IMG/VR virus record: IMGVR_UViG_3300035698_027847
Location: 1-20,560 of that record
Source: a virus
Reading direction: 5' to 3' (one strand)
DNA: 20,560 nucleotides
Below the pieces are notes generated by a model that was not told the origin of the DNA, did no database searches, and was given only the letters and a program-made list of their open reading frames with translations. The first letter of the stretch is position 1. Each line of letters begins with the position of its first letter. Positions 3,529-18,058 of this stretch are shown here, piece by piece. Made by a program: the position numbers and the translations under genes.

Positions 3529-4561
3529 TTTGCATTTAAAATTAGTAAATCTTGAAATTGTACAAATATTTTTTGATTATGTTAATAAAATATTAGAAAA
3601 AAAATGTTCTATAGGTTCTAATGTTAGTCTAGTTTTCCTTGGAGATATTTATGATGTTAAATCTATTATTAGAGTTGATGTCCAGAATTTCTTTTTTAAA
3701 CAATTGCATAAGTTATTGCAAAAGAATTTAAAGCAAATTTATATAATTTTGGGGAACCATGACTATACTAATTTAAATTTAGTAACTCATGCTTTTGATT
3801 TTGTACATTTGTTTTGGGATAAAATCACTATAGTTGATGAATTTAAACTTATATGTCCTGCAATAGGTGCGATTCCTTATCGAAATACATCAGAAGAATT
3901 TAAAAAAGAATTGTCAAAGTCTCAACATGATTTAGATATTTTGTTTTGTCATCAGTCTATCAATGAGTTTTATTTTAATCCACAAATGAAGGTGAAAGAA
4001 AGTAATAGCGTTAGTATTAAAGATTTTGGCAAAAGTAAAGTAATTGCTGGTCATTTTCATACATATCAAGAAAAAGATAATGTATTATATCTAGGATCAC
4101 CATTGGCGCATAGTTTTGCGGAATCTAATGAAGAAAAGAAAATCTTATATATATCTGGTATTGATAATAAAGAATTTGAGTTTTTTTCTTTAAAAGAGAT
4201 ATTGCCGCAATATTATTCTTTTGAGGTATCTTTAGAGGATTTGTTAAATGGCAAAGTAGATAAATACAATAATAGAGATTTTGTGAGGTTTGTTGTTAGA
4301 GATAGTCAAGAAAATTGTCAAAAAGTGAGTAAGCATTTTTTGACTTCTTTGATAGAACAAGATATATTACCGAAATGTGATAATATTTTTATTCAATATG
4401 ATTTTTTAGATCCATCGATTAAAATTCAAATTAAGGAGAATCAATCTATGATTGAGATGTTTGAGGATTATATCAATTTATATCTAACAGATTGTCAAGA
4501 CAAAGAGTTTATTCTAAATTTAGGAAAAAATAAATATTTGAAAAAAGTTTTAAATCAATAG
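3506..4561 (+). CDS. SbcD/Mre11-like (T4 gp47) nuclease subunit of recombination exonuclease
   Basis: This 351-residue calcineurin-type metallophosphoesterase contains the full set of metal ligands in order: GDLH (D8, H10), LGDIYD (D47), GNHD (N84, H85, D86), CHQS (H149) and GHFH (H183, H185). LYLGSPLAHSF near residue 195 is the typical end of the nuclease core of SbcD/gp47 proteins. In T4, gp47 works with gp46 to resect DNA ends and create the 3' ssDNA used by UvsX. The matching gp46/SbcC gene lies one small gene downstream, so the complex is encoded here. The start overlaps the recombinase end and follows GGGGGAC. The C-terminal third is less conserved and presumably caps the core and contacts the ATPase. 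Confidence 0.93.
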   Translation: MEFLVIGDLHLKLVNLEIVQIFFDYVNKILEKKCSIGSNVSLVFLGDIYDVKSIIRVDVQNFFFKQLHKLLQKNLKQIYIILGNHDYTNLNLVTHAFDFVHLFWDKITIVDEFKLICPAIGAIPYRNTSEEFKKELSKSQHDLDILFCHQSINEFYFNPQMKVKESNSVSIKDFGKSKVIAGHFHTYQEKDNVLYLGSPLAHSFAESNEEKKILYISGIDNKEFEFFSLKEILPQYYSFEVSLEDLLNGKVDKYNNRDFVRFVVRDSQENCQKVSKHFLTSLIEQDILPKCDNIFIQYDFLDPSIKIQIKENQSMIEMFEDYINLYLTDCQDKEFILNLGKNKYLKKVLNQ

Positions 4562-4911: not shown

Positions 4912-6768
4912 ATGATAAAATTAATAGAATTAAAAGTTAAAGATTTTTTGTCGTATGAAGAGTTAACTGTTACATTTGAAAAAGGATTGTTTTTGCTGGA
5001 TGGATATAATTATGATGAAGAAACTTCTAATGGAAGTGGGAAATCGGCAATAATAGATGCAATTTGCTTTATCCTTTATGGAGATTTGCCAAGAAAAATT
5101 AAATTAGATGAAGTTGTTCGGTGGGGGCAAACTACTCTTGATACGCAGTTGAGTTTCAAAAGAGGTGAGGATATTTATTTTATTCATAGAACTAGGAATC
5201 CAAATGTCTTAAATTTTTATAAAAACACTAAAATTAAGAATGGTAGAGATAGCCGAGAGACACAACAATTTATCAATAAAATTATTGGATTGAGTTTTCA
5301 AACATTTTTAAAGAGCATTTATTTTTCTCAAAATACTGATATTGTTCAACAATTTTTATTTTCTAATGACGAAGAAAAAAAAGATGTATTAACTGAAATT
5401 TTAGATTTATTTGTTTTTGATACTTGTTTTGATTTAGTTAAACAAGATTTAAGAATAATTAAAGAAAAAACTGAGGAATTATTAAATAATCTCAATTTTT
5501 GTAAAAAAGAATTGATTACGAAAAAAGAGCAATCAGTTCAAATGGCGAGGTTATCGGATTCTTTTGAATTAGTTCGAGATACAGATCTTAAAAAGTTTAG
5601 AGATAAAATAAAGGATTTGATGACTGAAAGAAGAGATGTGAAGAAAAAATATAATGATGATTGTAAATTAGTAGAGGTAATTGACAATAATCAGAATAGA
5701 ATTGATGAGTTGAGAGAGACATGTGATGACTTGATTGATAATAATTTAAGCAAAAAGTGTTTGAATAAAGCTACTAATGACAAAGAATTACAAATTTTAA
5801 GTAAGCAGAAAAGACAATTTAATGATTTGATAGCAGCAGGTAAATGTCCAACTTGTCAACAAGATGTGAAAGATGAAAATTTATTGGATTTCATTAAGCC
5901 GTTGAATGTTAAGATTGGAAAATTAGAAGATGAAAACAATATATTAATTAATGATATAGCTAAAACAGAGAATAAAGTTGAAATTAATAAAGCAAAGAAA
6001 AAAGAAATTGATAATTTAAGAATAAAAGTTATCGCCTCTCAGAATATTTTTAAAAATTCTACTCAAAATTTTAAAAAAATGACAGAGAATATAAACAAAC
6101 ATATTGATAATTTTAATGAGTTAATTAATAAAAAGGAAGAGGAAAGTAATAATTATGGTGAAATGGTTGAAAATTTGAAAATTGAGATTGAACAACAAGA
6201 AAATAAAAATGTCAAAAAGAAGGAGACATTGAAAAAAGCAGAAAAACAAATTAACGCATATAGTTTATTAATAAAATCTTTTAGTCGAGAAGGGATAAAA
6301 GCGTTTGTTTTTGCTAAAGTTATTAACGAAATTAATTTGTATCTTGCAGAATATTTAAGGCAGATGTTTGATAGTAATATTTTATTAAGATTTGACGTAG
6401 AGTCTTTAAATTCAAAAGGTAATATAAAGCAAAAGATTGATACTGTTTTATTGATAGATAATGAGAAAAGGAATATTCACGCTTTGTCCGGTGGGGAGAG
6501 GGCAAGATTACTTTTGGCAACTAGTTTTGCACTATCTAAGATCATTTCAGTCAGATCTTCAGCAGTACCAAATTTTATTTGTCTTGATGAGTGTTTTGTT
6601 GGATTAGATAATGCTGGCAAAGAGAATATTATGCAATTTCTTATTAAGTTATGTGAATCAAAAGATTTTGTGTGGGTTATTGACCATAGTAATACATTTC
6701 AAAATATGTTTGATGGAGTTTATAAAGTAGAAAAAAAGAATGGAGTAAGTGCATTGGTAGTTAATTAA
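4912..6768 (+). CDS. SbcC/Rad50-like (T4 gp46) ATPase subunit of recombination exonuclease
   Basis: This 618-residue SMC-type ATPase has Walker A (GSGKS, residues 41-45) in the N-terminal lobe, then two long charged helical arms that probably form an antiparallel coiled coil. A zinc hook, CPTC, sits at residues 312-315 at the tip. The C-terminal lobe has the ABC signature LSGGE (525-529) and Walker B FICLDE (D559, E560), followed by a D-loop (GLD). The protein resembles T4 gp46 in size and is shorter than bacterial SbcC, so the arms are short. With the upstream gp47/SbcD-like nuclease it should form the end-resection complex. The start at 4912 lies just after the zinc-ribbon gene; the upstream sequence AAAAAGGAT serves as ribosome binding site. 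Confidence 0.93.
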   Translation: MIKLIELKVKDFLSYEELTVTFEKGLFLLDGYNYDEETSNGSGKSAIIDAICFILYGDLPRKIKLDEVVRWGQTTLDTQLSFKRGEDIYFIHRTRNPNVLNFYKNTKIKNGRDSRETQQFINKIIGLSFQTFLKSIYFSQNTDIVQQFLFSNDEEKKDVLTEILDLFVFDTCFDLVKQDLRIIKEKTEELLNNLNFCKKELITKKEQSVQMARLSDSFELVRDTDLKKFRDKIKDLMTERRDVKKKYNDDCKLVEVIDNNQNRIDELRETCDDLIDNNLSKKCLNKATNDKELQILSKQKRQFNDLIAAGKCPTCQQDVKDENLLDFIKPLNVKIGKLEDENNILINDIAKTENKVEINKAKKKEIDNLRIKVIASQNIFKNSTQNFKKMTENINKHIDNFNELINKKEEESNNYGEMVENLKIEIEQQENKNVKKKETLKKAEKQINAYSLLIKSFSREGIKAFVFAKVINEINLYLAEYLRQMFDSNILLRFDVESLNSKGNIKQKIDTVLLIDNEKRNIHALSGGERARLLLATSFALSKIISVRSSAVPNFICLDECFVGLDNAGKENIMQFLIKLCESKDFVWVIDHSNTFQNMFDGVYKVEKKNGVSALVVN

Positions 6769-6782
6769 AAAGGAGGAATAAA

Positions 6783-7201
6783 ATGGAAAAAAGTAAAAAA
6801 AAAGCTAAGGAAAATAATAAAAATATGGAAATAAATTGGGAGATGAAATTTAATGAGTTATATGAAAAAGTCAAAGTTGCTAATAAAATAATGGCTATTC
6901 AAGTAGCGACTTTTAATACTTTAACAGCGTTGATAAAAAACAATTTTAATATTTGGTTAAGACATGAGAAAGGGCAGATAATTGCTTCAGTAACTTCTTT
7001 TCAAAGAGAAGAGGATGCTACAGACAAGTTTGTGGGAATACTTTTCAGGAGGTAGCAATAAAAATAGCAAAGGAGGCAGATAATTGTCTTAGTGGTGCTA
7101 TGGATTTGGCAATGATGTTTTTAGAAAACACAGGGGATTTGCCAGATGAAGTAAAGGCAGAAGTTAAAAAGGCAATAGTGGAAGGGGGAACAAGAACATG
7201 A
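6783..7201 (+). CDS. Unknown helical protein, reading frame apparently split by a -1 shift near 7043
   Basis: The first frame starts at 6783 after AAAGGAGG and gives 90 residues, ending in TAG at 7053-7055. A second frame, offset by -1, stays open from before that stop to a TGA at 7199-7201 and reads as a plausible acidic helical tail (for example MDLAMMFLENTGDLP). It has no ATG, GTG or TTG near its start. Its stop overlaps the next gene's ATG as ATGA, as coupled phage genes often do, so this looks like real coding sequence. Joining the frames at the CTTTTC stretch (7041-7046) gives about 139 residues. Alternatives are a separate gene starting at AUA 7058 after a perfect AGGAGG, a natural frameshift mutation, or a sequencing error. 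Function is unknown. The coordinates cover both parts. Confidence 0.55.
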
Positions 7202-7662
7202 TAAACTCAATAGCAGCACTTGATTTAGGGACAACATGTGGTTGGGCATTATATTACTACGGTGTAGAGAAAAGTAAATTTAGCGGAGTATGGGATTTAT
7301 CTGTTAAAAGAGATGAGAGCCGAGGTATGAGACTTATTAGATTACGGAACAAGTTAAACGAAATAGGAAAAGTAGATTTGCTTGTTTTTGAAGTATCTAA
7401 AAACCATATGTCAACATTAGGTGCGGAAGTAGCAGGAGAGTTAAGAGGAGTAGTCACAAATTGGTGTTATGATAACAAAGTAGAATATAATGGTGTACAT
7501 TACTCAGACATAAAGAAGTTTGCTACAGGGAAAGGTAACGCAAATAAAGAAAAAATGATAAAATCTTGTATAGAAAAACTTAATTATAAACCACAAGATG
7601 ACAATGAAGCCGATGCAAGGTGGTTATTGGAGTATAGTATTGAAGAATTCATTAAAAATTAA
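7198..7662 (+). CDS. RuvC-like Holliday junction resolvase
   Basis: This 154-residue protein has an RNase H-like fold signature of the RuvC family, which cuts Holliday junctions symmetrically. The first catalytic Asp is in ALDLGTTCGWA (D9), the Glu is in VFEVSKN (E65), and the C-terminal acidic pair is in DDNEADA (D135, D139). A conserved KKFATGKGNANKEKM segment precedes them, as in phage RuvC-like enzymes, where a lysine and G-K-G-x-A-x-K-x-M pattern is typical. The start at 7198 overlaps the upstream stop in an ATGA arrangement, and the SD is GGAAGGGGGAAC. In T4 the equivalent job of branch clearing before packaging is done by endonuclease VII; here a RuvC type lies next to the recombination genes and just before the terminases. 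Confidence 0.88.
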   Translation: MINSIAALDLGTTCGWALYYYGVEKSKFSGVWDLSVKRDESRGMRLIRLRNKLNEIGKVDLLVFEVSKNHMSTLGAEVAGELRGVVTNWCYDNKVEYNGVHYSDIKKFATGKGNANKEKMIKSCIEKLNYKPQDDNEADARWLLEYSIEEFIKN

Positions 7663-12906: not shown

Positions 12907-13806
12907 ATGTTAATTACAGATGGAACAAAAAAAAGATTAATGCAGATTATTGAAGATCATTTTGATGGAATTATGATTAAAATGGTTGGTAGAGAAGATA
13001 TATCAAGAGAAATGATAGGCGAATTAATCAATAAAGGCATTATTTCGCCTTTTCCAGAATATGAGAATTTTGTAGAAGATGCTTATTTTATAGGGAAATT
13101 AAGATCAGATGTTAAATCTAAGCAAATATCATTAAAAGAACTAAGATTAAGAGAAAAGGAAGTAATTTTATCTGATGTTGAGAAATATGCTATTAATAAT
13201 ATCAGAGAATCAGCCGGTGTTTATATAAGTAAATTAAAAGATTTAGCTCAAACACATTTGCTTGAGACAATAAACAATTTAAACATGGATTATAGAAATG
13301 TGATATTAAGTGGAGTTATTCGACCGATATTGACAGAAGGCATTGCTAAGAGAAAGATGACAAATGCTATTGCATCTGAGATGAGAGATAAGACAAAAGA
13401 TTTGTTTAGAAATTTTCAGAGAATAGTATCTACAGAGTTAACTACTGCGGTAAATGTGGGGTCTCAGGATGCTATAATAGCTCGTCATCCAGAGAAAACT
13501 TCTAAAGACATATATGTGTTTAAGGTAGCACATGATGATGCGGCTTTGTGTGATTATTGTCGGAAATTTCATTTAAATAGAGATGGTACACCAAAGGTAT
13601 ATAAATTATCAGATCTTCAATCTAATGGTGACAATTATGGTAGAAAAGCAGCTAGTTGGAAGCCAACAATTGGGGCTACACATCCAAATTGTAGGTGTGA
13701 ACCACTTGTTTATATCGCGGAAGGATGGGATTTTGACAAGAAAACGAAAGAATTGAAATTTGTAGGTAAGGGGAAAGAGAGTTGGAAGAAGAAAAAACAT
13801 CAATAA
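12907..13806 (+). CDS. Mu gpF/SPP1 gp7-like phage head morphogenesis protein
   Basis: This 299-residue protein fits the minor head protein family (Mu gpF, SPP1 gp7), found next to portals and thought to be carried in the head and to bind DNA or portal. A mostly helical, basic N-terminal part is followed by IVSTELTTAVNVG (about residues 173-185), the conserved helix of the family. Next come zinc-knuckle-like residues CDYCRKFH (C215, C218, H222) and the hallmark GATHPNCRCEPLVYI (H259, C262, C264) near the end. The last 30 residues are basic. It starts directly after the previous stop with AAGACAGG upstream. It is the last head gene here, as no scaffold, protease or major capsid gene follows. 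Confidence 0.87.
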   Translation: MLITDGTKKRLMQIIEDHFDGIMIKMVGREDISREMIGELINKGIISPFPEYENFVEDAYFIGKLRSDVKSKQISLKELRLREKEVILSDVEKYAINNIRESAGVYISKLKDLAQTHLLETINNLNMDYRNVILSGVIRPILTEGIAKRKMTNAIASEMRDKTKDLFRNFQRIVSTELTTAVNVGSQDAIIARHPEKTSKDIYVFKVAHDDAALCDYCRKFHLNRDGTPKVYKLSDLQSNGDNYGRKAASWKPTIGATHPNCRCEPLVYIAEGWDFDKKTKELKFVGKGKESWKKKKHQ

Positions 13807-16921: not shown

Positions 16922-18058
16922 ATGGGGGGACAAATTACGTTTAGGTCTTCATTGTATGATTTCAAACCTATACTTTGGAAAGGGGAAGAAAAAGAATTAA
17001 AAAAAATTAAAATTAAAGAAAAAAATTTATTTTTGGATTTAATAGAAACAGATCCTATAATAAATAAAGATTATTTGTGGTGGATAAATTATTGCAAAGA
17101 ATACCGACATCCGTATGTAATTGCTAAAGGCAGCTTGAAGAATAAATATTTAAAAAGACGAAATGTTAAGCAGCAAGTTTATGGATTTTTCCGGTATATT
17201 AAAGGAGATTATGTAATGGAATATGATAATAAAAAAGTAGAAGAAGAAGAAAAGGTAGAATTGAAAGAACAATTCGACAAAAAATTGACATTAGAACCTG
17301 ATTTAGTGGAGCAAGAATTAAGCGGATTTGTTGACGAAGAAGTAACAGATCTTGACTTAGAAAGTGAATCAGTTTTTAGATTATCAAGTGAAAATGAAGA
17401 TAAAGATAAAGACGTAAAATTCTCTTTATTGGATGAGTTACCTGAAGAATCATTAGAGGAATTATTAGAGGACTCACCAGAGGAATCACTAGATTCATTA
17501 TTAGACAAAACATTAGACAAATCACTAGAGGAATCATCAGATACAATGCCTGAAGTATCTCCCGAAGTATCTCCTGAAGTATCCCCTGAAGTATCATCAG
17601 ATATAATGCCTGAAGTATCGCCTGAAGTATCTCCCGAAGTATCGCCTGAAGTATCTCCCGAAGTATCGCCTGAAGTATCTCCCGAAGTATCTCCTGAAGT
17701 ATCATCAGATATAATGCCTGAAGTATCTCCTGAAGTATCATCAGATATAATGCCTGAAGTATCTCCTGAAGGCGTTATTCGCCCTTCAGAAATTATAAAA
17801 AATGAAGAAATAGTTAGTGTAAAAGAAGAAGTAAAAGAAGTTATAAATACTATTAATGAAGAAAAGAGAGTTTTTAAGGGTGAGAAAAAATTTAATATTT
17901 TAAGATTTGTAAGAGAGAATATTGGTAAAGACAATGGATGGTTATATACTGAACTTATGTCATTAAAAGAAAGTGGAGAAGTTCTTATTGAATTAAAAGG
18001 TAATTTGAAGAAAAAAATTGTACAATATCGGTGGATGGTTAATAAACATAAAAAGTAA
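16922..18058 (+). CDS. Acidic repeat protein with PEVS array, function unknown
   Basis: This 378-residue protein has three parts. Residues 1-100 are a small folded region rich in W, Y and K (DYLWWINYCKEYRHPY). Residues 100-285 are acidic and low-complexity: first degenerate SLEELLEDSPEESL-type repeats, then a tandem array of four-residue S-P-E-V units interrupted by SSDIM, rich in Pro, Glu and Ser like an extended linker. The last 60 or so residues are basic and folded (FNILRFVRENIGKDNGWLY onward), resembling a winged helix, so DNA binding is possible but unproved. The start follows AAAAAGGGGG. It ends just before a strong terminator. A flexible spacer between two folded ends is a reasonable structural inference; function is unknown. 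Recombination within the array could change its length. Confidence 0.8.
   Translation: MGGQITFRSSLYDFKPILWKGEEKELKKIKIKEKNLFLDLIETDPIINKDYLWWINYCKEYRHPYVIAKGSLKNKYLKRRNVKQQVYGFFRYIKGDYVMEYDNKKVEEEEKVELKEQFDKKLTLEPDLVEQELSGFVDEEVTDLDLESESVFRLSSENEDKDKDVKFSLLDELPEESLEELLEDSPEESLDSLLDKTLDKSLEESSDTMPEVSPEVSPEVSPEVSSDIMPEVSPEVSPEVSPEVSPEVSPEVSPEVSPEVSSDIMPEVSPEVSSDIMPEVSPEGVIRPSEIIKNEEIVSVKEEVKEVINTINEEKRVFKGEKKFNILRFVRENIGKDNGWLYTELMSLKESGEVLIELKGNLKKKIVQYRWMVNKHKK
17534..17770 (+). repeat. 12-base tandem repeat array coding for SPEV units
   Basis: The units are 12 bases, TCNCCNGAAGTA, encoding S-P-E-V, in blocks of 4, 8, 2 and 1 plus a final partial unit. Each block begins with ATGCCTGAAGTA (MPEV) and is preceded by TCATCAGATATA or TCATCAGATACA (SSDI or SSDT). 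Inside the longest block, TCGCCTGAAGTA and TCTCCCGAAGTA alternate, so 24 bases form a higher-order unit, a sign of expansion by recombination or slippage. All units keep the reading frame. Confidence 0.95.

Follow-up and report, generated by a model that had tools for sequence, protein, structure and literature searches.

A small phage gene between SbcC-like and RuvC-like genes, split over two reading frames, is best explained as one gene with a single-base frameshift

The two reading frames found at positions 6783 to 7201 of the virus record IMGVR_UViG_3300035698_027847, analysed over its whole 20,560 bases (hereafter the window), very probably represent one phage gene broken by an ordinary single-base frameshift, either a true mutation or a consensus error. 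The region would constitute one small gene for an uncharacterised protein of about 140-165 amino acids, broken at about 7035-7041. Translation from 6783 would run through five wrong codons to the stop at 7053 and yield a 90-residue product without the C-terminal part. An intact homologue was identified in related viruses, and a single indel separates the two frames of the copy in the window. A frameshift mutation or sequencing error had been listed as one alternative in the sequence-only reading, and it is this alternative that the continuous homologues, together with one single-base gap, bear out.

The virus is AT-rich with a strongly positive GC skew, and the window encodes UvsX-like, SbcD-like, SbcC-like and RuvC-like proteins, a terminase, a portal protein and a DNA polymerase processivity factor. 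The split gene lies between the SbcC-like and RuvC-like genes. Its frame-0 ORF (6783-7055, plus strand) comprises 90 codons and ends at TAG 7053-7055, and the -1 frame has a stop at 6965-6967 and then none until TGA 7199-7201, which overlaps ATG 7198 of the RuvC-like gene within ATGA. Mean codon log-odds are equal in the two parts, at +0.206 for the 5' part and +0.214 for the 3' segment, and the remaining two frames of the 3' stretch give -0.91 and -0.51. For ILFRR, the five codons that close the first ORF in frame 0, the value is -0.68. The earlier description of a split over two frames with ATGA coupling to the next gene is thereby confirmed in its coordinates and in the coding character of the 3' segment, which also matches a homologue, and the naming of that next gene as RuvC-like agrees with its PHROG match. 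The 3' frame had been said to hold no ordinary start codon, which proved incorrect: ATG 7100 is in frame, though it would leave only 33 codons. The features are collected in Table 1.

Table 1. Positions in the window of the split gene, its signals and the following gene
Feature	Position	Strand	Basis and remarks
Shine-Dalgarno (SD) sequence AAGGAGG of the split gene	6770..6776	+	Read from the sequence; good SD
5' part of the gene	6783..7055	+	L015 homology, codon scores; last five codons (7038-7052) out of the gene's frame
Probable single-base indel site	7035..7041	+	DNA alignment; judged by amino-acid similarity alone, anywhere in about 7016-7046
3' part of the gene, running in the -1 frame to TGA	7037..7201	+	L015 homology, codon scores
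AGGAGG, QEV codons in the gene's own frame	7047..7052	+	L015 alignment, window motif count
RuvC-like Holliday junction resolvase gene, ATGA overlap with the split gene	7198..7662	+	phrog_159, E 8.6e-26

Relatives were reached through the terminase, which gave L015 (85% identical) and L016 (59%). A terminase profile then gave L020, L021 and L023 (65%), three records identical to each other across the 1251 bases compared, plus the more distant L024 and L025. In L015 (IMGVR_UViG_3300035698_028165), positions 6127-6576 form one continuous, syntenic ORF of 150 amino acids between SbcC and RuvC. The 5' part of the split gene matches this homologue with 55% identity over 76 residues (E 7e-33), and the 3' part with 55% identity over 51 residues (E 2e-16). 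The latter match, together with the codon scores, indicates that the 3' segment is more than a chance open frame. In L021 (3241-3738), as in L020 and L023, the homologue is likewise unbroken, a single ORF of 165 amino acids that is 32% identical to that of L015 over 115 residues in a single frame (E 5e-17). Every homologue found, in L015 and in L020, L021 and L023, is continuous. The proposed search of relatives for a continuous homologue thus succeeded in both groups, and the suggestion of one protein of about 139 residues is supported by both parts matching the single ORF of L015. The syntenic place in L016 holds an unrelated 72-residue ORF, and the gene gave no match in L024 or L025. Used alone as a query, the read-through protein retrieved no homologue from IMG/VR, the phage collection, PHROGs or Pfam, and a scan of genome contigs returned no relative.

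The DNA alignment of the window with L015 contains one single-base gap at about 7035-7041, after which ACTTTTCA is identical in both. The shift had originally been placed at the T-run of CTTTTC (7041-7046), a position that is not supported, as this run is unchanged in L015, whose ORF passes through it without a break, and the alignment gap falls just upstream of it. In a switch-point scan against L015, a switch at the T-run scored 363 and switches at 7025-7037 scored 371-377, and against L021 the T-run switch was neutral (202 vs 198-201). The sequence comparison suggests that the T-run is not the preferred place of the shift, though the scan alone leaves room for it.

Against L015, dN of the window copy is 0.281 in the 5' part and 0.289 in the 3' part, with pS values of 0.70 and 0.68, respectively. 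The 3' part displays no relaxation of constraint and no further stop. Since the two parts resemble each other in codon usage and dN/dS, the shift appears to be recent in the virus population or to be an error in the assembled metagenome consensus. An unrelaxed 3' part is compatible with a mutation of very recent date or with an error of assembly; in principle, ongoing translation would explain it as well. Among the about 22 window genes comparable with the L015 contig, the split gene alone is broken and the others align in one frame, so there is no sign of a generally indel-rich assembly. The indel does not lie within a long homopolymer, which, combined with the absence of a comparable frameshift elsewhere, argues mildly against a generally error-prone assembly. 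No near-identical second copy of the virus was found in IMG/VR, as searched with records very close to the window possibly withheld.

A programmed -1 shift at U_UUC in CTTTTC, producing a 139-residue fusion beside the 90-residue product, was also considered and is very unlikely. The tetramer U_UUC (7043-7046, frame 0) belongs to the Z_ZZN motifs, a class with weak shifting in E. coli (PMC4066793), and the 3' part remains open and constrained, as such a mechanism would have it. However, the gene occupies a single frame in both related lineages, so that the two-frame arrangement is not conserved, and the fusion residues ILF fit L015 worse than a switch just upstream (363 vs 371-377). The only slippery motif at the shift point is this weak tetramer, and the L015 alignment gap lies upstream of it. 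No stimulator was found, either as an upstream SD-like sequence or as a downstream structure: AGGAGG is downstream of U_UUC, and nothing stands out in the downstream fold (z -1.54, folded without pseudoknots). Unstimulated Z_ZZN tetramers in E. coli shift with a mean frequency of about 0.15% (0.147% vs 0.112% in controls), and U_UU.C ranks second to A_AA.G once a strong pseudoknot is added (PMC4066793). In-frame T_TTC has 10 occurrences in the window's other genes. The downstream position of AGGAGG, the fold z-score, the frequency of T_TTC and the continuous homologues together make a programmed shift unlikely, and no relative uses one. A trace of full-length product from the weak U_UUC tetramer is possible. 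It is a similarly slim prospect that a gene recently broken by an indel is kept working in this lineage through an adopted -1 shift at U_UUC or through reinitiation at AUA.

Scarcely credible is a two-gene arrangement, in which termination at TAG 7053 would be followed by reinitiation of a second gene at AUA 7058 (or ATG 7100) behind AGGAGG, the protein being made in two pieces. In its favour, AUA 7058 follows AGGAGG at a distance of five bases and has the upstream stop very close by. AUA is, however, a very poor start codon, and homology in the 3' frame is already evident before AUA 7058 (GNTFQEV). AGGAGG at 7047-7052 aligns to CAA GAA GTA (QEV) of L015 and thus codes for Q-E-V, and its count in the window, 7 copies against 5.7 expected, is not unusual. 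AUA 7058 is an internal codon whose L015 counterpart in the alignment is an internal ATG, and the gene is continuous in both relatives, against a separate second gene. The perfect AGGAGG followed by ATA 7058 pointed out earlier is present in the sequence but, as QEV codons, would hardly serve as a start signal, and its likeness to a ribosome-binding site is probably due to chance. The chance that the two open frames are unrelated or fortuitous is negligible, as both match one protein significantly and have coding-like codon usage, against which stands only the lack of Pfam matches. Two further mechanisms were rejected: a +1 shift at AGG AGG, as tandem rare codons, would move ribosomes into the third frame and not into the homology-bearing one, and a run of four T is too short for transcriptional slippage.

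A Pfam search with the family gave no match above cut-off, PHROG similarity was weak (phrog_28743, E 0.011, of unknown function), and a PDB sequence search returned no relative. For the L015 homologue, AlphaFold gave a low-confidence model (pLDDT 50); it tentatively predicts a helix, three strands and two helices, and the break would fall just before the first C-terminal helix. From its position among recombination genes, the gene may have an accessory part in recombining or repairing DNA. For annotation, the region is best entered as a single frameshifted gene and neither as a pair of genes nor as a recoding signal, and the consequence extends little beyond this. The gene encodes a small, conserved, uncharacterised protein adjoining recombination genes (SbcC, RuvC-like).

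Other loci of the window were also compared with the L015 contig. The ORF at 16922-18058 carries SPEV / SDIMPEV motifs repeated at 17376-17800, and the L015 contig matches its N- and C-terminal parts, the repeat region being unmatched. The Mu-F-like head protein homologue of L015 (12304-14205) contains an insertion of ~310 amino acids relative to window 12907-13806, with intein-like ends (THPN-SVVDPKTVIYTKKGWVKIKDI ... FIARGVVIHN-CRCEP) and an endonuclease-like middle, as assigned by eye. The window copy reads THPNCRCEP without the insertion and, also by eye, looks like an empty site.

Compared with known systems, the split gene shares U_UUC in frame 0 with the programmed -1 signals of IS1/IS3 elements (tetramer U_UU.C, PMC4066793), but differs from them in having no upstream SD stimulator, unusual structure or conservation, and its relatives are read without a shift. 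The homologue of L021 (also of L020 and L023) is a single-frame homologue that resembles it in following the SbcC-like gene, and differs in its length of 165 amino acids and an extra ORF (3735-4355) before the RuvC-like gene. By eye this ORF looks like a GIY-YIG/NUMOD homing endonuclease; it is absent from the window and L015, and its ATG overlaps the stop of the split-gene homologue. The start region of the intact L015 homologue (6100-6135) bears a 13-bp tandem duplication (GGAGGACACCAAT twice) that creates two SD-ATG pairs, the first ATG opening a frame of merely a few codons. The L015 homologue has the same syntenic SbcC-like and RuvC-like neighbours as the split gene, and its stop likewise overlaps the next start (GTGA), whereas it is read in one frame of 150 amino acids and its C-terminus is longer by about 20 residues.
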